Source of the DNA: an uncultured Bacteroidia bacterium
GTDB taxonomy: Bacteria; Bacteroidota; Bacteroidia; Bacteroidales; UBA932
Assembly: GCA_902796455.1 (NCBI GenBank)
Contig: CADBPH010000197.1
Span: 1 to 10,696, forward strand
DNA length: 10,696 nucleotides
Reading direction: 5' to 3'
Both the position numbers and the translations under genes were made by a program. Position 1 is the first letter of the stretch, and each line of letters opens with the position of its first letter. Below are positions 1 through 10,696 of the stretch, piece by piece. The notes under the pieces were generated by a model. It did no database searches. It saw only the letters and a list, made by a program, of their open reading frames with translations, and was not told the DNA's origin.

Positions 1-885
1 GACATGCTGCGGGAATTCCGCTTCAGCGAGCCCGGAGAAACTGCCGATCCCGGTCTGGAATACACCGAACGCTGGTCGCACGAACGCGCCTGGAAACGCA
101 TGGTCTGCGGCCCTGTCAAGGGAATCCATCTTCCCTCGGCCAACCTGGCAGCCGTGCCGGCCGGCTACAACAGTGCCCGGATCAAATTCAATTACCAGGA
201 CTGGGCGGCGGACAAGGACGCCTTCTTCGCCCGGACGGATGCGCTGGTAAAAGCCGCGAATGCCCGTGGCATCACCCTCCTGCCCGTGCTGGTGGATGAC
301 AATGACAGCGCCGTTTCCGACGAGGCGCTCGGCGCTTATGTCGAAAGCGTCATCGGCAAATATTACTACGATCCCGCCATCCAGGCATGGGACCTGTATT
401 GGCATCCCGGCGAGAAGTGGAATGACAAAGAGAAGCTCTCCCGCAGGGTGACGACGTTGTTCCAGTATGCACGCAACCAGTACGCGAACCAGCCGCTGAC
501 AGCAACGCCGCTGGTGCGTGTCAAACCCTTCGAGCCCGGCTTTGACTACATCAATGCCCTCATGCACGGAAGGACGAACGGCTGGACCAAACTGGAGTAT
601 CCGGGAGCGAGCGACGTGGAACTGGTCCACAAGATCTGGAGCATCTCCGATGTCCTCTCCTTCTCGACGGACCAGCCGCAGCCCGAGGCCGGATGGCTCC
701 TGAGCATCTGCTTCCGTTATGGCCGTCCGATTTTCTGCACGGACCTGTCCTCCCCTTCCACGGAAGAGGCCGTCAAGACCCTGGAGCGCTTCTCCATGAG
801 CCATGTCTTCTGGTATACGGGCAAGCCCCTGCCGGCCAGCGCAGTAGCCGGTTTCCGCTTCCAACCCATTTCAACGAAACATTAA
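1..885 (+). CDS. GH5-like (clan GH-A) TIM-barrel protein with substituted catalytic residues, 5'-truncated
   Basis: The frame is open from base 1. The first ATG (base 4) has no signal peptide or upstream context, so the gene almost certainly begins before the window; residue numbers here count from that ATG. I recognise the pattern of Bacteroidota cellulase-family (GH5-like) proteins: RWSxExAW entry (about 23-30), NSARI at the beta-2 strand (56-60), GITLLPVLVDD (89-99), AWDLY (128-132), NQPLT (162-166), SDVLSF (215-220) and YGRPIFCT (239-246). At the key positions, however, the usual N-E-P acid/base motif reads W-H-P (133-135), the usual H-N-Y after SDVxSF reads S-T-D (221-223), and the nucleophile motif T-E reads T-D (246-247). 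The fold call is fairly safe; activity is doubtful, and a binding role or altered chemistry is possible. It ends 13 bases before the DUF5107 gene and is probably co-transcribed with it. Confidence 0.75.
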   Translation, partial: DMLREFRFSEPGETADPGLEYTERWSHERAWKRMVCGPVKGIHLPSANLAAVPAGYNSARIKFNYQDWAADKDAFFARTDALVKAANARGITLLPVLVDDNDSAVSDEALGAYVESVIGKYYYDPAIQAWDLYWHPGEKWNDKEKLSRRVTTLFQYARNQYANQPLTATPLVRVKPFEPGFDYINALMHGRTNGWTKLEYPGASDVELVHKIWSISDVLSFSTDQPQPEAGWLLSICFRYGRPIFCTDLSSPSTEEAVKTLERFSMSHVFWYTGKPLPASAVAGFRFQPISTKH

Positions 886-898
886 ACCCTGATTTTCA

Positions 899-3800
899 AT
901 GAAGAAAGCAATCTACAGCCTCCTTGCCATCCTGATGGCCGGCCTGCTTGCCGCCACACCTTCATTTGCCCAGCAAGTGACTGTGTCCGTTGAGCAAGAG
1001 ACCATTCCCACGTACCAGATCGGTGCGCCGGAGGTGAATCCCATCTTTTTCACGGGCCGTACCTATCAGGGAGCAGAAGGCTACATCTATCCCTATCCCC
1101 TGTACGATGTCATGACGGACAAGGTCGTCGACCAGACCTATGATATCGTCAAGCTGAAAAACAACTACATCAGCCTGGGCGTCCTCCCCGAAATCGGAGG
1201 CCGCATCTTCCAGGCGGAAGACCTGACGGACAATTACCACTTCTTCTACACCCAGACCGGGATCAAACCCGCCCTGATCGGCATGCTCGGTGCCTGGCTC
1301 TCGGGCGGTGTGGAATGGGACATCCCGGACCATCACCGCGCCAGCAGCTACATGCTGGTTGACTGGACAATGGAAGAGAACGCCGACGGCAGCAAGACGG
1401 TCTGGGTCGGAGAAACGGAATTGAGGCACCGGCTCAAATGGTCGGTCGGCATCACCATCTTCCCGAACAGTTCCCGCGTGCAGGCCAGCGTGAAGGTCAT
1501 CAACCCGACCCCGATGGTGCAGTCCATGCTCTACTGGGCCAATGTTTCGGTCCACTGCAACGAGGACTATCAGGTTGTCTTCCCGCCGGATGTCCAGTTC
1601 GGAACCGACCACAGCAAGGTATACTTCACCCGCTGGCCGGAAGGCCCCGTTTCGCGCAGCAACAAGACCGAGGTGGACCTGTCCTGGTGGAAAAACTTCG
1701 ACCAGTCATCCCGTTCCATTTTCGCCTGGGGCAGCCGCATGGGCTTCGTCGGCGGCTATGACCACGGAAAAGATGCCGGTACCGTCCACGTTGCCAACCG
1801 TTTCCAGGTTCCCGGCAAGAAATTCTTCCTGTGGGGCAACAACCCGACCGGCATGCTCTGGAACAAGATCCTTTCCGACAATGACGGGCATTACCTGGAA
1901 TTGATGGTCGGCGGTTATTCCGACAACCAGCCGGACTACAGCTGGCTCGCTCCGGGTGAAATCCGCGAATTCAAACAGACCTGGTTCCCGATCAAGGGCA
2001 TCAAGGGCATCAAGAATGCAACCGAATTCGCCGCCGTGAACCTGCAGAAAGCTGCGGACGGGAAATGGCTGGTCGGCTACAATGCTTCCATCGATCTCAA
2101 GGGCGCGAGGGTCATCCTGGCCGCAGGCGACAAGATGCTGCTGGACAAGAAGATTGACATCAATCCCGACAAATTCTTCCTCGAAGAAGTCGCCGTTCCC
2201 GCCGGTGTGGCGGAGAAAGACCTGTACACGGCTTTGTGCGACGCCAAGGGCAACCTGCTCGTGGATTACCGCCCTGTCCAGCTGGAAGAGAAAGAATTGC
2301 CGAAGGTCATCGACGGGACGAAACCTGTGGACCAGTACGAGACAGTGGAAGAACTGTATCTGGCCGGACTCCGTGTCGACCAGTTCAACAATGCCCGCCT
2401 GGACTACATGGACTTCTACAATGAGGCGCTCCGCCGCGACCCGGGTGATGCCCGCGTCAACATCGAGGTCGGCAAGCATTACATCCGCCAGGCAGCGTGG
2501 GCCAAGGCAGAGGAGCATCTCCTCCGCGCCCAGGCCCGGCTGGAGCACGACTATACGCGTGCCTACAACACGGAAGCAGATTATTATCTGGGCTATGTCT
2601 ACCGCATGACCGGCAAACGGATCGAAGCGGAGGAAAACCTGTGGGCAGCGACCTACACCCCCGCCTTCAAGCATCCCGCCTATTACCAGCTCGCCGTCAT
2701 GGCCACGGAAGACAAGGACTACAACAAAGCCCTCCAGCTGGCTGACGATGCCCTGCTGACCGGCGCGCACGACCTGCAGACCTTGACCCTGAAGACCTAT
2801 CTGCTCCGCAAGCTCGGCCGCAAGGACGAGGCGCAGAAAGTGATTGCCGCGATCAAGCGCATCGATCCGCTCGACTACTGGAGCGAATTCGAGCAGAGTT
2901 ATCTCCAGAAAGGGAATCTCTCCTTCCTCGCAGGCACCCGCAGCCGCCGCAGCGAAGGCATCATTGCCGTGCAGGAGCTCCTCGAAGTTGCTTGCAACTA
3001 CTTGAATCTCGGGGACAAAGAAGCCGCCCAGGCTGTGATTGACGAAGCCATCGGCATCGGCACGCCGTTCGCCGATTATCCGCTCGTGCACCTGTACCGC
3101 GCCTACATCGCCGGAGATGCGGAAGCAGTGGCCAAGGCAACGCAGCTGAGCCCCCGGAACAACTTCCCGCTGCGCCTGGAAGAGGTGCAGATGCTGGAAA
3201 CCCTCGAGGCCAAGTATCCCGACAACAGCGTCATCCCGTATTACCTGGGCAACCTGCTGTACTATATCGGGCAAAAAGACCGCGGACTGGCCGAATGGCA
3301 CAAGTCCGTCAAGATGAATCCTGCCTTCTCCCTGGCTTGCCGCAACGTCGGTTTCGGAGAAGGCCAGAAGGGCAACTACAACGATGCGCTCAAGTATTAT
3401 GACATGGCCATCGCGGCGGATCCGTCCGACCCGATGCTCTTCACGGAATCCGACAAAATCTGCGAAAAAGCCGGCATCGACGCCAAGACCCGCATGAAAC
3501 GGATGGAAGCCAATATAAAGACGGTCATGAAGCACGACGATGCCGTCATGCGCCTGCTCCAGACCTACAACACGACCGGCAATTATGACAAGGCCATCAA
3601 GATCATGAATACCCGTCACTTCCATCTGTGGGAAGGCGGCGGAGAGATCCACAACATCTATGTGGCCTCCCATATCCTGAAGGGACAGTCTTACCTCGAG
3701 AAGAAGAAGTACGACAAAGCCCTGAAGGAATTCGACCTGGCGACCCTGTATCCCGAGAACCTCGAAGTGCCTGCCCCGGCCGGCAAGAATGTCACGCTGG

Positions 3801-3931
3801 AATCCCTGCTGCAGGAAATGCAGGATGAGCTGAACGACAATTATGCGAAGTTCGGTGAAGCGGATAAGGCAGCTACGCAAAAACGGATCGAAGAATACAA
3901 GAAACTCCTGGAAATCATTAAGAAACGATAA
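899..3931 (+). CDS. Secreted DUF5107 domain protein with C-terminal TPR repeats
   Basis: A 1010-residue protein of a large Bacteroidota family with no function I can name. Residues 1-25 form a Sec signal peptide (MKK, a hydrophobic core, then PSFAQQ), so it is exported and probably periplasmic. DUF5107 spans about 30-370; typical segments are LGVLPEIGGRIFQ (93-105), GGVEWDIPDHHR (136-147), MLYWANVSVH (210-219) and TWFPIKGIKG (361-370). The GGRI-type strand resembles mutarotase-superfamily beta-sandwiches, suggesting sugar binding. A beta-rich linker follows (about 375-465). From about 485 to 950 there are helical TPR-type repeats, for example around 500-540, 560-585, 595-620, 780-805, 820-842 and 930-950, ending in a charged helix (985-1010). 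The start at 899 is set by the signal peptide; no Shine-Dalgarno is visible. The gap to the mutarotase is 4 bases, so the two are surely one transcript. Confidence 0.85.
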   Translation: MKKAIYSLLAILMAGLLAATPSFAQQVTVSVEQETIPTYQIGAPEVNPIFFTGRTYQGAEGYIYPYPLYDVMTDKVVDQTYDIVKLKNNYISLGVLPEIGGRIFQAEDLTDNYHFFYTQTGIKPALIGMLGAWLSGGVEWDIPDHHRASSYMLVDWTMEENADGSKTVWVGETELRHRLKWSVGITIFPNSSRVQASVKVINPTPMVQSMLYWANVSVHCNEDYQVVFPPDVQFGTDHSKVYFTRWPEGPVSRSNKTEVDLSWWKNFDQSSRSIFAWGSRMGFVGGYDHGKDAGTVHVANRFQVPGKKFFLWGNNPTGMLWNKILSDNDGHYLELMVGGYSDNQPDYSWLAPGEIREFKQTWFPIKGIKGIKNATEFAAVNLQKAADGKWLVGYNASIDLKGARVILAAGDKMLLDKKIDINPDKFFLEEVAVPAGVAEKDLYTALCDAKGNLLVDYRPVQLEEKELPKVIDGTKPVDQYETVEELYLAGLRVDQFNNARLDYMDFYNEALRRDPGDARVNIEVGKHYIRQAAWAKAEEHLLRAQARLEHDYTRAYNTEADYYLGYVYRMTGKRIEAEENLWAATYTPAFKHPAYYQLAVMATEDKDYNKALQLADDALLTGAHDLQTLTLKTYLLRKLGRKDEAQKVIAAIKRIDPLDYWSEFEQSYLQKGNLSFLAGTRSRRSEGIIAVQELLEVACNYLNLGDKEAAQAVIDEAIGIGTPFADYPLVHLYRAYIAGDAEAVAKATQLSPRNNFPLRLEEVQMLETLEAKYPDNSVIPYYLGNLLYYIGQKDRGLAEWHKSVKMNPAFSLACRNVGFGEGQKGNYNDALKYYDMAIAADPSDPMLFTESDKICEKAGIDAKTRMKRMEANIKTVMKHDDAVMRLLQTYNTTGNYDKAIKIMNTRHFHLWEGGGEIHNIYVASHILKGQSYLEKKKYDKALKEFDLATLYPENLEVPAPAGKNVTLESLLQEMQDELNDNYAKFGEADKAATQKRIEEYKKLLEIIKKR
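1991..2014 (+). repeat. Short tandem 9-base repeat inside the DUF5107 gene
   Basis: ATCAAGGGC is present twice in tandem followed by a partial third copy (ATCAAG), encoding IKGIKGIK at residues 365-372, at the end of the DUF5107 domain. The TW(F/Y)PIKGI segment is part of the family consensus as I remember it, so at most one unit is extra. It could be prone to slippage in nine-base steps without breaking the frame. Confidence 0.6.
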
Positions 3932-3935
3932 CGGG

Positions 3936-5051
3936 ATGAAACATTACCTGCTGTGGGCGGCCGCTGTGCTGGCGGTCGCCTGCACAGCAAAACCGAAACC
4001 GGTTTTGCTGGATGAGACAAAATTCAAGACCGAGGTGGACGGCGCACCGGTATCCCTCGTCACGATCCAGGGCGGGAAACTGGCCCTGCAGGCGACGAAT
4101 TTCGGCGGCCGGGTCGTCTCGCTCTTCGTACCGGACAAAACCGGGGCGTACAAGGATGTCGTCCTGGGGCATGAAACCATCGACGAATACGTCCACTACA
4201 CCAAGGAACGGTTCCTGGGAGCCTGCGTCGGCCCCGTCGCGAACCGGATCACGAATGCCTCTTTCACCATCGACGGCGTCACCTACCAACTGGACGCAAA
4301 CCACGGAGGGAAAGGGACCCTGCACGGCGGATTCAAAGGATTGGATTCGGTTGTGTGGGACATCCGGGAGAAAACGGACCATTCCGTCACGTTCCATTAT
4401 CTGCACAAGGACGGCGAAGCAGGATTCCCGGGAAACCTGGACATCCTGATGACCTATTCGCTGACACCGGACGACTCCTTCAAGATTGAATACAAGGCGA
4501 CGACGGACAAGACCCGTCCCGTCAATATTTCCAATCACCCGTATTTCAACTTCTCGCAAAGCGGCACCATTGACGACTACGTGATGTACATCAATGCGGA
4601 CGCCATTACCGCGACCCAGGGCCTCGATATCCTCAGTCCCCCGGTTTCCATCGTCGGGACAGCCATGGACTATCGCACGCCCCATCCGGTCGGGGATGCG
4701 TTCAGCAGCGACTACGAGCACTTGAAACGCGGCCGTGGTTTCGACCACAACTACTGCCTGAACCGCAAGGAAGCAAAGGACATCGAGCTGGCAGCTTCCG
4801 CCTACGACCCTGCTTCGGGCATTTTCCTGGAGGTCTTTACGGACCAGCCTGGCCTGCAGGTTTACAGCGGACAGTATTTCAACGGGGAAGAGAACGGCAA
4901 GTACGGTTCCAAACTCCTGTACCACGGTTCCCTGACCTTTGAAACCCAGAATTGGCCGGACGCTCCGAACAAACCGGATTTTCCGGATCCCTACCTGAAG
5001 CCCGGGCAGACCTACACGCATACCTGCATCTATCATTTCTCGACAAAATAA
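3936..5051 (+). CDS. galM: Aldose 1-epimerase (mutarotase), lipoprotein
   Basis: Interconverts the alpha and beta anomers of aldoses such as galactose or glucose. The 371-residue protein carries the whole GalM signature: GPVANRI (99-105) with substrate-binding N103/R104, GTLHGG (127-132) with H130, SNHPYFNF (199-206) with catalytic acid H201, RGFDHNY (267-273) with D270, and FETQNWPDAPN (335-345) with catalytic base E336. Length is normal for the extracytoplasmic Bacteroidota form. The start at 3936 is chosen because it gives a lipoprotein signal (LLWAAAVLAVAC, lipidated C16); the same frame is open back to 3843, but that would overlap the DUF5107 gene and bury the signal. It follows the DUF5107 gene by 4 bases and is followed by a hairpin. 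Activity is likely because all key residues are present; the natural sugar is unknown. Confidence 0.93.
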   Translation: MKHYLLWAAAVLAVACTAKPKPVLLDETKFKTEVDGAPVSLVTIQGGKLALQATNFGGRVVSLFVPDKTGAYKDVVLGHETIDEYVHYTKERFLGACVGPVANRITNASFTIDGVTYQLDANHGGKGTLHGGFKGLDSVVWDIREKTDHSVTFHYLHKDGEAGFPGNLDILMTYSLTPDDSFKIEYKATTDKTRPVNISNHPYFNFSQSGTIDDYVMYINADAITATQGLDILSPPVSIVGTAMDYRTPHPVGDAFSSDYEHLKRGRGFDHNYCLNRKEAKDIELAASAYDPASGIFLEVFTDQPGLQVYSGQYFNGEENGKYGSKLLYHGSLTFETQNWPDAPNKPDFPDPYLKPGQTYTHTCIYHFSTK

Positions 5052-5116: not shown

Positions 5117-6601
5117 ATGAACATGACAGCCAACAAGTTATTCGCATCCATCCTGCTGCTTGGCGCGATCTCCTGTCAAGGAGGGCGCCCGGAGAGGACC
5201 GCTGATGAGCTCCCGCCGATCTGGCCGGATTATACCGGCGTGACCGTCCCGGTGAATATCGCCCCCATGAACTTCGGCCCGGCAGACGGGCTGCCTGTCA
5301 GACGCATGCTTGTCGAGGTGTGCGACCCCTCCGGAAAGCCCGTGCTCCGCAGCCGCGGCACCGTCGCCCGTTTTCCGCTCCGCCGCTGGCACCGGATCCT
5401 GAACCGGCACGCCGGAGCAGACCTGACTTTCCAAGTAGCGATGCGGACCCAAAACAGATGGACCCGGTACCGCCCCTTCACGATGCACATCAGCCCCGAC
5501 CCCATTGATTTCGGACTGACCTACCGGCTCATCCCGCCCGGCTACCAGTCTTTCGGACACATGGGCATCTACGAGCGCCATCTTTCGGATTTCCGGCAAC
5601 GGGAGCTGATCGATACGCGGATGCTGGACTCCGGGTGCATCAACTGCCACACCCAGAACCGGACCGATCCGGCTTCGTTCAGCCTGCATGTACGGGGAGC
5701 CCACTCGGCCACCATCCTCCGGCATGACGGGCAGATGGAATGCCTCAACACCCTCACGGACAGCACAGGCGGATTCTTCGTTTACCCGTACTGGCATCCC
5801 ACCGGCCGCTATACGGCTTATTCGGTCAATACGACCCGGCAGTCATTCTATTCCGCTGCCGACCATTTCCTGGAGGTTTATGACGAGAAATCGGACATCA
5901 TCGTCTATGAGCCCCAGACCCATACCGTTCTCCGCCCCCGGGAACTCAGCCGCAAGGACCGGTTTGAAACCTGGCCTGCATTCTCGGCGGACGGGAACAC
6001 CCTGTATTATTGCTCCTCCCTGCCGGGCCGCCTCCCGCGGGATGCCCGCCAAATGCAGTACAGCCTGTGCAGCTTGTCCTTCGACCCGGCCACAGGCACA
6101 TTCGGAGCGAAAGCGGACACCCTGGTCGATGCACGCGTGAAAGGGATGTCCCTGAGCCAGCCCCGTCCGTCTTACGACGGGAAATACCTCCTCGTGACAG
6201 CCGCCGATTTCGGGACATTCCTGATCTGGCACAAAGAAGCCGATCTGTGGCTGTACAATCTGGAAAACGGCGACTTTTACCCGGCCGGCGGCATCAACAG
6301 CGGCGACACGGAAAGTTTCCACAACTGGAGTTCCAATTCCAAATGGGCCGTTGTCGCCTCGCGTCGGGACGACGGCCTCTATACGCGCCTGTATCTGGCG
6401 CACATGAACGAAGAAGGACGCTTCGACAAGGCCTTTCTCCTTCCGCAGAAGAATCCCGGAAAGTATTATTCCGAAATGATTTATTCATACAACACCCCGG
6501 ATTTCACTTCGGAGCGTGTTCCTTTTGACCGGCATGCCGTACGCAAAGCCGTCCTCGCGAAGGATAGACAAGGTGTCAAAGCAAACGGAATGAATCCCTG
6601 A
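5117..6601 (+). CDS. PD40 (TolB-like) beta-propeller lipoprotein with c-type haem motif CXXCH
   Basis: A 494-residue predicted lipoprotein (MNMTANKLFASILLLGAISC, C20 lipidated by a relaxed lipobox). Segments in order: an N-terminal beta domain with PPIWPDYT and VPVNIAPMNFGPADG (33-58), common in Bacteroidota; a near-invariant PPGYQSFGHMG stretch (140-150); SGCINCHTQNRTDP (172-185) holding the CXXCH haem-attachment motif C174-C177-H178; then PD40-type propeller strands around 223-238, 285-301, 347-366 and 403-429. Some relatives have been labelled cytochrome c biogenesis proteins, but I see no biogenesis domain. The start at 5117 is preferred over the in-frame ATG at 4952 because only it gives a lipoprotein signal and avoids a 100-base overlap with the mutarotase. 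The next gene begins 5 bases on. A paralogue starts at 9865. Family call firm; haem binding inferred. Confidence 0.82.
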   Translation: MNMTANKLFASILLLGAISCQGGRPERTADELPPIWPDYTGVTVPVNIAPMNFGPADGLPVRRMLVEVCDPSGKPVLRSRGTVARFPLRRWHRILNRHAGADLTFQVAMRTQNRWTRYRPFTMHISPDPIDFGLTYRLIPPGYQSFGHMGIYERHLSDFRQRELIDTRMLDSGCINCHTQNRTDPASFSLHVRGAHSATILRHDGQMECLNTLTDSTGGFFVYPYWHPTGRYTAYSVNTTRQSFYSAADHFLEVYDEKSDIIVYEPQTHTVLRPRELSRKDRFETWPAFSADGNTLYYCSSLPGRLPRDARQMQYSLCSLSFDPATGTFGAKADTLVDARVKGMSLSQPRPSYDGKYLLVTAADFGTFLIWHKEADLWLYNLENGDFYPAGGINSGDTESFHNWSSNSKWAVVASRRDDGLYTRLYLAHMNEEGRFDKAFLLPQKNPGKYYSEMIYSYNTPDFTSERVPFDRHAVRKAVLAKDRQGVKANGMNP

Positions 6602-6606
6602 AAAAC

Positions 6607-8136
6607 ATGAAACCTCACTCTATCATACGGATCCTCGCAGCGGGACTGGCTGCCGCCCTGCTGAGCCTCACCGGATGCACCGAAAAAGAACAGCCGGACG
6701 GAACTGTCTCATACAGCGCTGAATATGTAGTTGTTACGCAGCATGGAATCAAGAACGACGGGACCCCGATCGGCGGCGAACTCAACGCGCTGGTCAAGGC
6801 CAACTATGGGAAAACGCTCTATTTCCCGCCCGGGGTTTACCGCCTGACCGAACCGATCGTACTTCCCTACGACTATGCGAAGAACGTCAACCTGATGCTC
6901 GACCACAATGCCGAGGTCACTTCGTCCATCCACCTGGACGCCCTGCTGAAAATCGGCTTCTCGGAAATGACGAACACCTCCCGCATGCGGCTGTTTTCTT
7001 TCGTCGAAGGCGGTACCTTCAATGCGGAGAACACGGATGTCGGCATCTGGGTCAACGGCTTGAAACAACTGGTCTCCCTGCGCACGCTCAATGTCATCAA
7101 ATGCCACGGAACACACATCAAAATCAGTGTGACGGACGATTTCAAAGGCACGGGCAGTTCGGACACGAAGCTGGACAATGTCACGATTGAGGGATATTCC
7201 TCCAATGAAAACAATTACGGGATCTATATCGACCGGTCCTGCTGCGACTGCAAGATTTCCGACTGCTTCATCTACGGGACCCGATGCGCCATCTATACCG
7301 CCTCTGCAGGCCACATCATCAACAATGTGCACATCCTGTCCTGGGTCGCCGCCGGCGGAGAAAACGGCGCATTTGTCGGGACGGAAGGCATCCGGGTCGA
7401 AAGCGGCGGGTTCTTTACCTTCAACGAAATCTACTTCGACACGACAGACCACGACCTGGTCATCGGGAATGTCTCGCCGGACATCATCATGGACAAGCCC
7501 CTGTCGTATTCCTGGTACAAAGGGCTCGGATCCGCTTTCGTCTACCGTCCGGATTATATCAGCCCGTTCCGGCTGAAAATCTCCGGAGGGAACATTGACC
7601 TCGGCAACAAAGCGGACAATTTCAGGATTTTCCACATCGACCGCACCATCATCCCCTCGGACAACGAGCAGCGCATCACATTCACCAACAACAACTTGAT
7701 GGGCGCAAGCAAACTCTACCCCCTGGACTATTCCCTGATGATGAAGATGCGGGGGACACGGAGCGAAAAGCTTGTCAACAAGCCCTCAGCCTTCGACGCG
7801 GGAGTTTGGTATCCGCTCGGAGCCCTGGCCATCAGCCCATCTGAGAATCACTTGGAGGTCCGCCTGTCCAACGAACAACGCATCCGCCTGAAAGTCAATT
7901 ATTCCACGAACGGTGTCGACATCCAGAAAGAAACGGCCGTCCCGGAAGGCTTCACCCTGGGTTATCTCGTGCAGGACAAATGCTGCATCCTGCTGTTCCA
8001 AAGCACGGCACAGGTCACCCTGCAACCTGAAGTCATCGACCTGGACGGAAACAGTTCCTACCTCTGCACCCCGGACAAAGACAAGGTCTACACCTTGAAA
8101 GACTATACAACTACCACTTACGTCAATCCTATCTGA
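6607..8136 (+). CDS. Right-handed beta-helix lipoprotein, pectate-lyase-like
   Basis: A 509-residue predicted lipoprotein (hydrophobic signal, lipobox LTGC, C24). Residues 40-87 match the entry of pectate-lyase-superfamily beta-helices: HGIKNDGTPIGGELNALV, then LYFPPGVYRLTEPIVLP. Repeating short beta strands with N/D/G turns run to about 370, as expected for a parallel beta-helix; a second beta-rich domain of about 120 residues (about 390-509) closes the protein and might be a carbohydrate-binding or capping module. I see no clear GH28 catalytic aspartate motif or pectate lyase calcium/arginine site, so the activity is unassigned; lyase, hydrolase or binding protein are all possible. A cysteine cluster (C212, C213, C215, C220, C227) is unusual. 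It lies 5 bases after the PD40 gene and 1 base before the membrane protein gene, implying translational coupling. Confidence 0.72.
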   Translation: MKPHSIIRILAAGLAAALLSLTGCTEKEQPDGTVSYSAEYVVVTQHGIKNDGTPIGGELNALVKANYGKTLYFPPGVYRLTEPIVLPYDYAKNVNLMLDHNAEVTSSIHLDALLKIGFSEMTNTSRMRLFSFVEGGTFNAENTDVGIWVNGLKQLVSLRTLNVIKCHGTHIKISVTDDFKGTGSSDTKLDNVTIEGYSSNENNYGIYIDRSCCDCKISDCFIYGTRCAIYTASAGHIINNVHILSWVAAGGENGAFVGTEGIRVESGGFFTFNEIYFDTTDHDLVIGNVSPDIIMDKPLSYSWYKGLGSAFVYRPDYISPFRLKISGGNIDLGNKADNFRIFHIDRTIIPSDNEQRITFTNNNLMGASKLYPLDYSLMMKMRGTRSEKLVNKPSAFDAGVWYPLGALAISPSENHLEVRLSNEQRIRLKVNYSTNGVDIQKETAVPEGFTLGYLVQDKCCILLFQSTAQVTLQPEVIDLDGNSSYLCTPDKDKVYTLKDYTTTTYVNPI

Positions 8137-8137
8137 T

Positions 8138-9868
8138 ATGTCCCATATCCTGAAAAGAATCCTGCCGACAGCCGTTCTGGGTCTGCTGAGCCTGTGGTTC
8201 TGGGCCATCATTAGCCCGAATATCCTGCATTTCCACGAAACGGCACAGTTTTTCCCGTATACCTGGACCCACCTGCGGGAAGCGCTCGGCATCCCGGGCG
8301 GACCGGCCCGCTATGTATCGGAATTCTTCGTCCAGTTCTTCCTGTACGCATTCCCGGCCGGGCTGATTGTCTCCCTGTTCCTCTGCGCCCTGCAAGGCTT
8401 GTCCTGGAAACTGGCCTGCCAGTTCCGGAAACAGGAGTCTGAGGCACTGTACCCCCTGAGCTTCATTGTCCCCTTCTGCGCGTGGACCTATCTCTGCGAT
8501 TTCGGGAACATGTTTACAGGAATCGTCGCCCTGACCGGAGTCCTTGCCGGCGCCTGCCTGTATTTCAACAAGGAACGTTCCTGGGGGGCTGCGGCGCTGA
8601 CCACCCTGCTGCTGTACTGGACTTGCGGGCCGTTGGCCGGCATCTTTGTCCTCCTGCTGGCCCTGCATACGATCCTGAAGGGAGGCAAGGCATGGCCGGT
8701 CATTGCAGCCCTCGCGCTATGGGCCCTGCTCCCCTTCCTCTGGCATTACTGCATCCAGTATACTCTGAAGGAACTGTATCTGGGCAATGAATACTACCAT
8801 GAGCCGCAGAAATGGTCTGCAGGCTATTGGATACTGGCTGCTTCTCCCTTGGCAGTCTGCCTGGTCCAGGGACTGCTTCCCGCACCCAGGGAAGGACGTG
8901 GAGCGACATGGTCATGGCTGATCGGCAGCATCCTGGTCTTCGGCCTGGGCTGGTTCTGGATGATCCGGCACTGCAACCCGACGTATGAACGGATTTTCAA
9001 ATACGATAAGATGGCCCTCCACCAGGACTGGGACGGCATCCTGGCCAAAGCCAAAAAAGTTCCGCCCCGGACCCTGGCCGAAGCGACAGCTGTCAACCTG
9101 TCCATGGCCATGCAGGGGCGCCTCCTGACCGATCTCTTCCAATTCCAGCAACCGGGTCCCACTTCCCTGTTCCCGGACTATGCGTCCGGCTATGTCGTTA
9201 CCCTGACCGCAGGTGAATCCGTCTACCGGGCAGGCCTGCTCAGCACGGCCCGCCATTACGCTTTTGAGGAGTACGAGTCCTATCCGAACTACCAAGTAAG
9301 CGCCCGACACATGAAACGCGTGGCGGAAATCGATCTCATGCACGGACAGTACACCTTGGCCCGGCGTTTCCTCAAAGACCTCAGTCACACGTTGTTCTAT
9401 CGGAAATGGGCGAAACGGTACCTCGAAGACCCGACCCGTATCGAAGAAGATCCGGAATACCAGCGTCTGATGCAATACCGTGATTCTTCCGATTTCCTGT
9501 ACAGCGATTCTTCCGATGACGACAAGCGTGAAATGCTCCGCCACATTGTTGCAAAAGACGGACAGGTTTCCGTCCCGATGCAATACCTGCTGGCGTATGA
9601 CCTGCTGGCCCGTGACCTGTTCTCCCTGCGGGTTCACCTGCTCCTCATCGATTTCAAAGGGGAAGTGCCGCCGCTTATCCAGCAGGCTGCGGCCATGTTT
9701 GACGGCGCCTTCTTCGAAGTCGCTCCCGAGGAACGCGCGCTGGTGAGCGATGAAATCCGCAAACAGTACTCGGACTTCCAGACCGCCTTGATTGAGGACC
9801 GGAGCGGCGGCGAGATCAAAGCCCGCTTCGGTAAGACCTATTGGTACTATTATTCGCAAAAACAATGA
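8138..9868 (+). CDS. Polytopic membrane protein with large soluble C-terminal domain (DUF6057-like)
   Basis: A 576-residue protein of unknown function. The N-terminal half is strongly hydrophobic with about eight candidate membrane helices, near residues 9-29, 62-85, 104-120, 124-143, 149-180 (one or two), 186-204, 229-247 and 258-276. Residues from about 280 to 576 are soluble, mostly helical and TPR-like in feel (for example ATAVNLSMAMQGRLL at 316-330 and LARRFLKDLSH at 407-417), and should lie on one side of the inner membrane. I believe this is the Bacteroidota family called DUF6057, often seen beside PD40 lipoproteins; that name is from memory and unverified. The ATG at 8138 comes one base after the preceding stop, and the stop overlaps the next start (ATGA). 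No catalytic motif is visible. It may anchor or serve the two flanking haem-motif lipoproteins. Confidence 0.68.
   Translation: MSHILKRILPTAVLGLLSLWFWAIISPNILHFHETAQFFPYTWTHLREALGIPGGPARYVSEFFVQFFLYAFPAGLIVSLFLCALQGLSWKLACQFRKQESEALYPLSFIVPFCAWTYLCDFGNMFTGIVALTGVLAGACLYFNKERSWGAAALTTLLLYWTCGPLAGIFVLLLALHTILKGGKAWPVIAALALWALLPFLWHYCIQYTLKELYLGNEYYHEPQKWSAGYWILAASPLAVCLVQGLLPAPREGRGATWSWLIGSILVFGLGWFWMIRHCNPTYERIFKYDKMALHQDWDGILAKAKKVPPRTLAEATAVNLSMAMQGRLLTDLFQFQQPGPTSLFPDYASGYVVTLTAGESVYRAGLLSTARHYAFEEYESYPNYQVSARHMKRVAEIDLMHGQYTLARRFLKDLSHTLFYRKWAKRYLEDPTRIEEDPEYQRLMQYRDSSDFLYSDSSDDDKREMLRHIVAKDGQVSVPMQYLLAYDLLARDLFSLRVHLLLIDFKGEVPPLIQQAAAMFDGAFFEVAPEERALVSDEIRKQYSDFQTALIEDRSGGEIKARFGKTYWYYYSQKQ
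9482..9517 (+). repeat. Two copies of a 12-base direct repeat inside the membrane protein gene
   Basis: GATTCTTCCGAT occurs at 9482-9493 and 9506-9517, a 24-base period that keeps the frame. It encodes DSSD twice within an acidic, serine-rich stretch (residues 449-462), probably a surface loop created by a small in-frame duplication. Confidence 0.6.
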
Positions 9869-10696
9869 AACGGATTATCGGCCTATTGCTTCTCGCCGCC
9901 GGCACCTTGTCCTGCGCAGGGACGGACGGGACCTCTTCAGAGGCATTCCCTCCTATCTGGCCGGATTACACGGATGTTACCATCCCCGTGAACATTGCCC
10001 CGATGAATTTCGGGCCGGCGGACGGACTGCCCGTCAAGGGCTTACGCGTTGAAGTACGCACGCCGGACGGGAAAACCGTGCTGCGGAGCCGCGGCCGCGT
10101 CGCCCAGTTCCCCCTCCGGCGCTGGCACAAGATCCTCCGGCGGCAGGCCGGAAGTTCCCTGACCTTCCATGTCGCGATGAAAGCGGAAGGGCAGTGGACG
10201 AACTACAAGCCTTTTGACATGCATGTCAGCCCCGACCCGATCGACTACGGACTGACTTACCGCATGATTCCTCCGGGCTACCAGTCCTTCGGCCACATGG
10301 GCATTTTTGAACGGAACCTGTCCAATTTCCACCAACGGGAACTGATTGATACCCGCATGCTCAATTCGGGCTGTGTGAACTGCCATACACAAAACCGGAC
10401 AGACCCTGCAACGTTCTCCCTCCACATCCGGGGGCGCCACGGTGCGACCGTCCTGCAACACGACGGGCAGTCCGAGTATTTGAATACCGTAACAGACAGT
10501 ACCGGCGGCGTTTTCGTCTATTCGTACTGGCATCCATCCGGAGAGTATATCGCGTATTCCACCAATGCGACGCGTCAGTCATTCTACACGGATTCGCACC
10601 GTTTGCTGGAAGGCTACGACGAAAAGTCGGATGTCATCGTGTACCATGTTCCCAGCCACGCCATCCTGCGGCCGCCGCAAAGCAACCGGAAAGACC
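9865..10696 (+). CDS. Second PD40 lipoprotein with CXXCH haem motif, 3'-truncated by the window
   Basis: The ATG at 9865 overlaps the membrane protein stop (ATGA) and the frame stays open for 277 codons to the window end. The N-terminus is a lipoprotein signal (MKRIIGLLLLAAGTLSC, C17 lipidated). It is a close paralogue of the gene at 5117: in an ungapped hand alignment from PPIWPDYT to RKD, about 180 of 249 residues are identical (72%). PVNIAPMNFGPADGLP (41-56), PPGYQSFGHMG (136-146) and the haem motif C170-V-N-C173-H174 in SGCVNCHTQNRTD are retained; the first PD40 strand (SYWHPSGEYIAYS, 220-232) is present and the rest lies beyond the window. The signal peptides have diverged much more than the mature domains. 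The role is unknown; it probably acts with, or as an alternative to, the first copy. Confidence 0.85.
   Translation, partial: MKRIIGLLLLAAGTLSCAGTDGTSSEAFPPIWPDYTDVTIPVNIAPMNFGPADGLPVKGLRVEVRTPDGKTVLRSRGRVAQFPLRRWHKILRRQAGSSLTFHVAMKAEGQWTNYKPFDMHVSPDPIDYGLTYRMIPPGYQSFGHMGIFERNLSNFHQRELIDTRMLNSGCVNCHTQNRTDPATFSLHIRGRHGATVLQHDGQSEYLNTVTDSTGGVFVYSYWHPSGEYIAYSTNATRQSFYTDSHRLLEGYDEKSDVIVYHVPSHAILRPPQSNRKD

Follow-up and report, generated by a model that had tools for sequence, protein, structure and literature searches.

Glycosyltransferases of the GT-C fold, such as PMT, OST/STT3/AglB, ArnT and AftD, bear in their first periplasmic loop acidic residues that are held to be catalytic. In the O-mannosyltransferases TMTC1-4 (GT105) and TMEM260 (GT117), a GT-C-like module with such a first-loop acid is followed by an extracytoplasmic TPR domain, which is thought to recruit beta-rich substrates (PMC11292533). 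Here we compare with these systems a locus of an uncultured Bacteroidia bacterium (Bacteroidales, UBA932), in which a DUF6057 membrane protein with a similar predicted layout is encoded next to a TolB-like lipoprotein carrying a CxNCH haem motif. The window analysed, 10,696 nucleotides, is the entire contig CADBPH010000197.1 (C197) of a fragmented assembly that is 78% complete.

The original prediction had described four tightly coupled genes on this contig, and their open reading frames, coordinates and spacings were all reproduced. All on the plus strand, these are a PD40 lipoprotein (PD40a, 5117-6601, 494 residues), a beta-helix lipoprotein after a 5-base gap (6607-8136, 509 residues), the DUF6057 protein after a 1-base gap (8138-9868, 576 residues) and a second PD40 lipoprotein (PD40b, 9865-10695), which overlaps DUF6057 by 4 bases and leaves the contig at its end (10696) with 277 codons present. 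As a set of four these genes did not hold up across genomes, the order being scrambled and partners missing in most, whereas a core of two, the membrane protein and the haem-motif lipoprotein, is a fixed pair, by gene order and genome by genome.

A fixed pair of genes

The membrane protein matches DUF6057 at 2e-118, with no other Pfam family listed up to E 0.1. Among 295 genomes of the order, DUF6057 was found over cut-off in 36, several of which hold three or four copies. The lipoprotein, searched with the PD40 lipoprotein alignment and counted at 150 bits or more (a threshold of our choosing), was found in 35, and 34 genomes have both. At E 1e-3 the alignment matched 121 of the 295, the matches beyond the 35 being weak, mostly below 36 bits, and uncounted; those of 98-113 bits in G072, G157 and G167, genomes without DUF6057 over cut-off, may be distant relatives. 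In a sample of the phylum, 6 of 395 genomes passed the DUF6057 cut-off, two of them outside the class.

Gene order was followed in two sets of loci. Forty stretches were chosen around DUF6057 among 76 rows over cut-off, mostly the stronger ones, at the expense of fragments and weaker copies. Of the 45 DUF6057 genes with at least 350 residues in these stretches, 37 have the lipoprotein directly downstream, 5 have it upstream only, 1 has it on the opposite strand and 2 do not adjoin it. A further 80 named loci (by record titles Bacteroides, Prevotella, Tannerella, Marinilabilia, and unclassified Bacteroidales or bacteria) were selected via the lipoprotein, among the matches listed, and their pairing rate is therefore biased: the lipoprotein lies directly downstream of 130 of 139 DUF6057 genes, 2 stand at a contig edge and 7 lack it. 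At least one of these 7 is an artefact of mechanical calling, which at L145 put an antisense reading frame (cluster c13) in place of the lipoprotein; this cluster also appears at L083 and L108. The commonest spacing in the relatives is the 4-base overlap. Two or more copies of DUF6057 occur in 45 of the 143 operon-like runs that contain it, and 36 runs consist of the pair genes alone.

The pair also diverges together. Over 151 adjacent pairs the correlation between the DUF6057 and PD40 distance matrices is 0.914; when partners were shuffled within a locus, it averaged 0.35 and peaked at 0.54 in 200 trials, and global shuffles never exceeded 0.09. The nearest neighbour is the same for both partners in 44% of pairs; with shuffled partners this share was 27% (maximum 32% in 100). 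The two genes have almost certainly been duplicated and passed on as one unit. As a control, the linked neighbours SusD (38 loci), c4 lipoprotein (37) and DUF4369 (28) correlate with DUF6057 at 0.77, 0.86 and 0.85, and with PD40 at 0.75, 0.88 and 0.85, while DUF6057 and PD40 correlate in those same loci more tightly, at 0.97, 0.98 and 0.95.

The DUF6057 membrane protein

In its model, the membrane part of DUF6057 (residues 1 to about 280) belongs to a stretch, up to residue 290 or so, that is arranged like PMT, OST/STT3/AglB, ArnT and AftD. Helices at 27-35, 43-50 and 55-69 lie between the first and second transmembrane segments, so that the protein has the long first extracytoplasmic loop with helices and an acid that is a feature of GT-C enzymes. 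The acid is E34 in the window (8237-8239); of 168 distinct sequences that cover this site, 165 have an acid at position 34 or 35. A GT-C-like fold is the probable prediction for this part. No solved structure was matched by the DUF6057 sequence. By sequence the protein also differs from TMEM260 in falling outside PF11028, and a profile comparison with the TMEM260-like family was not significant (hhalign probability 2.3%). P values were 0.0026-0.082 in six comparisons with TMEM260-like and PMT_2 relatives and 0.022-0.76 for hydrophobic control clusters, one control equalling TMEM260; the profiles were not accepted as proof of GT-C membership. The window genome also holds a separate TMEM260-like gene.

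Behind the membrane part, residues of about 290-440 match TPR proteins, and the charge pattern places the predicted TPR-like helical domain (about 290-576) in the periplasm. DUF6057 would share the layout of TMTC1-4 and TMEM260; it differs from them in having its own adjoining lipoprotein gene. Whether the module is still an enzyme divides two readings. In one, it has become an anchor or scaffold whose TPR domain holds the lipoprotein in a structural or sensing envelope complex. About two thirds of the DUF6057 positions conserved at 80% or more (W298, N320, G366, L415, W424 and others) lie past residue 290, neither the acid at 34 nor that at 121 is strictly kept, and envelope adaptors are known among proteins of the TolB type, all of which suits a scaffold; the acid kept at the GT-C loop position in 165 of 168 sequences would be needless in a mere anchor, and we consider this reading rather unlikely. 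Active sugar transfer by DUF6057 we would put just short of an even chance.

Some copies depart from the usual loop. Those with histidine instead of glutamate at 34 (the clade of L092, L098, L105, L126 and others) nearly all have D35 and E38 (HDRSEF), a loop that resembles the DCGEF motif of TMEM260-like proteins, and all 13 paired copies of this type go with lipoproteins having proline at 402. Others lack the acids at both 34 and 121 (L055, L063, L064 and L066-L070), most of them with an acid at 35, and are candidate inactive or altered forms.

The lipoprotein and its CxNCH motif

The claim of two related haem-motif lipoproteins was borne out: PD40a carries CINCH (residues 174-178; 5636-5650) and PD40b CVNCH (10372-10386), the two are 68% identical over 277 residues, and the other five called genes of the window have no CXXCH motif. 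PD40a matches the Pfam family PD40 at 6e-8; PD40b, cut within the propeller, gave no Pfam match over cut-off. In alignments whose final counts exclude two duplicate rows (copies from the window), the cysteines and histidine of the motif (C174, C177 and H178 of PD40a) are kept in all 188 distinct full-length relatives, and the lipobox cysteine column is cysteine in 187 of 188. On account of this invariance, the motif is to be taken as more than chance. The lipoprotein model has the TolB fold, with 11-14% identity in the TolB rows; by sequence, solved structures gave weak propeller or TolB matches only (best 2ojh, E 2e-4). From TolB of the Tol-Pal system it differs in being a lipoprotein with CxNCH, and the window, where such genes were looked for, holds no tolQRA/pal partner genes.

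Surface lipoproteins of Bacteroidetes carry acids directly after the lipid cysteine (PMC5080379). Two or more acids at positions +2 to +7 were found in 17% of 152 PD40 lipoproteins (those of 188 in which a script found the lipobox), against 91% of 66 SusD proteins (of 76) and 98% of 44 c4 lipoproteins (of 45); with 7% of 27 (of 33), DUF4369 resembles PD40 in being mostly without the surface-export signal. Because so few carry these acids, the PD40 lipoproteins very probably face the periplasm rather than the cell surface, which would place them on the same side as the TPR domain of DUF6057.

What the motif binds is less certain. Like c-type cytochromes, PD40 has CXXCH in an exported protein of bacteria with CcsBA genes: ResB and CcsA matches occur in 35 of the 36 carriers, including G000, the miss being a genome 61% complete. 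The lipoprotein could then be a true cytochrome and the pair an electron-transfer module, serving respiration or the reductive chemistry of carbohydrates or metals, a reading also in keeping with the few units that stand in runs with Rnf/NQR genes. In the cytochrome c fold, however, CXXCH stands at the start of a helix, whereas CINCH sits in a strand (174-181) of a TolB-like propeller (mean predicted local distance difference test score of 82 for residues 171-180), with no cytochrome c fold in the model. DUF6057 has no histidine conserved at 80% or more. Nor is any redox family prominent among the neighbours, in tallies that cover 169 of 182 selected neighbour genes and list 25 of 165 and 25 of 111 families (Fer4 3 and Rnf-Nqr 2 of 104 members). 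An electron-transfer module thus seems quite improbable.

Alternatively, the motif may form a metal-ion site or a disulphide that stabilizes the propeller, which would suit either role of DUF6057. Histidines 191, 227, 372 and 402 are conserved in 151-174 of 189 rows, and joint changes to Q191, H256 and Q372 occur in 15 lipoproteins; against this stand the strict conservation of the entire C-x-x-C-H and the CcsBA genes found in nearly all carriers, and we hold this to be rather unlikely. The histidine changes themselves, three clade-specific patterns, represent too few independent events to be accepted as proof of a metal site. Covalent haem on CxNCH has, in our estimate, about an even chance.

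Our preferred, tentative reading is a GT-C/TPR unit of the periplasm that has the TolB-like lipoprotein as its partner. DUF6057 would be an inner-membrane protein whose periplasmic TPR-like domain docks the beta-rich PD40 lipoprotein encoded next to it beside the membrane active site, as in the TMTC/TMEM260 enzymes; the GT-C-like module would move a sugar from a lipid-phosphate donor to the lipoprotein, or to a target that it presents. CxNCH would probably receive its haem from the host CcsBA, and the haem would tune or stabilize the lipoprotein. In the window genome, the single DUF6057 found would act for both lipoproteins, in an operon with carbohydrate genes. The pairing, its joint inheritance and the invariance of the motif are shown here; fold, topology and location are predictions, while contact, docking, sugar transfer and haem are inferred. 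Linked neighbours co-diverge with the pair as well (0.75-0.88), and since linkage alone gives correlation, co-divergence is by itself no proof of contact and was rejected as such; the control slightly lowered our confidence in this reading. A bolder version, in which an obligate partner with a propeller c-haem gates the glycosyltransferase and ties envelope glycosylation to redox or haem status, with several such pairs per genome, we consider quite unlikely.

Neighbouring genes and significance

The beta-helix gene, originally proposed as a partner, lies in the operon and outside the conserved unit. Its product scores just under the cut-off of PF12708 (5e-6; 26.8 against 27 bits). Among the 295 genomes, the search recovered the window gene, a distant relative (28%) within that genome and partial matches in four others (25-37% identity over 63-231 residues), five genomes in all, and single-sequence search at E 1e-5 gave no relative in 120 other loci. 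It was rejected as a conserved part, a result to which the first 40 loci also contributed; a four-component envelope complex, which the tight spacing on this one contig had suggested, is refuted as a conserved system and would be at most a private association, which we think very improbable. PD40a and PD40b resemble one another more (68%) than either resembles any protein found in another genome (best 54%, L074), and PD40a has no DUF6057 of its own directly upstream; the bracketing lipoproteins are a local duplication. With the beta-helix gene private to the window, sequence comparison identifies the bracket as a local build of core pair, duplicated lipoprotein and private addition.

The same-strand run is longer than first noted. 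Upstream of PD40a stand W1 (4-885), the C-terminal part of a protein of about 620 residues; a 1010-residue protein in which DUF5107 is fused to a long TPR region (899-3931; PF17128, 4e-50); and an aldose 1-epimerase, a putative lipoprotein (3936-5051; PF01263, 3e-69), followed by gaps of 13, 4 and 65 bases, respectively. When each sequence was searched singly at E 1e-5 against the window and 121 loci, the beta-helix protein and the DUF5107-TPR protein were found in the window only; W1 turned up additionally on contig C253 of this genome, and the epimerase in L151. C253 ends in a 199-residue PD40 C-terminus on the minus strand that matches PD40a residues 295-487 at 69%, complementary to PD40b, which matches residues 7-281 at 68%; C253 is therefore the likely continuation of the window contig, with two full-length W1 paralogues next (50 and 49% identity to W1). 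The three paralogues (window 4-885; L073 11521-15270) are 49-57% identical. One, of 625 residues, matches Glyco_hydro_2_C (a GH2 TIM-barrel) at 7e-4, below cut-off, and they are possibly an unnamed glycoside hydrolase family. No RNA family reached the gathering score in the window.

Elsewhere the neighbours of the pair vary, with assorted glycoside hydrolases among them; the c4 lipoprotein occurs in 30 of the 143 runs, a DUF4369 lipoprotein (cluster c5; L085 7438-8070 and others) in 31 and a RidA-like protein (PF01042, cluster c6; L076 3360-4481 and others) in 10. As in Sus-like polysaccharide utilisation loci, 35 of the runs hold both SusC- and SusD-cluster genes; the remaining 108 lack both together, by the two clusters used, and the window contig has no SusC/SusD-like pair.

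The original prediction knew of no named system of this make-up, and we found no paper on the pair in the open-licence literature, to which all our literature searches refer. Nor did we find papers naming DUF6057 or PF19529, joining DUF5107 with Bacteroides or DUF2723 with Bacteroidetes, or treating PD40 and c-type cytochromes in Bacteroidetes or CXXCH, SusD and polysaccharide utilization; of those joining PD40 and polysaccharide utilization, none is, by title, on this subject. The two-gene unit is thus apparently undescribed, and it gives a constant partner to a family of unknown function, often multi-copy, that is present in roughly one of every eight genomes in the sample of the order (36/295). 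Should DUF6057 be a GT-C enzyme, gut and rumen Bacteroidales would possess, in every copy and its adjoining lipoprotein, an enzyme already matched with its substrate or adaptor, and a haem motif within a TolB-like propeller, if true, would be a new setting for c-type haem.
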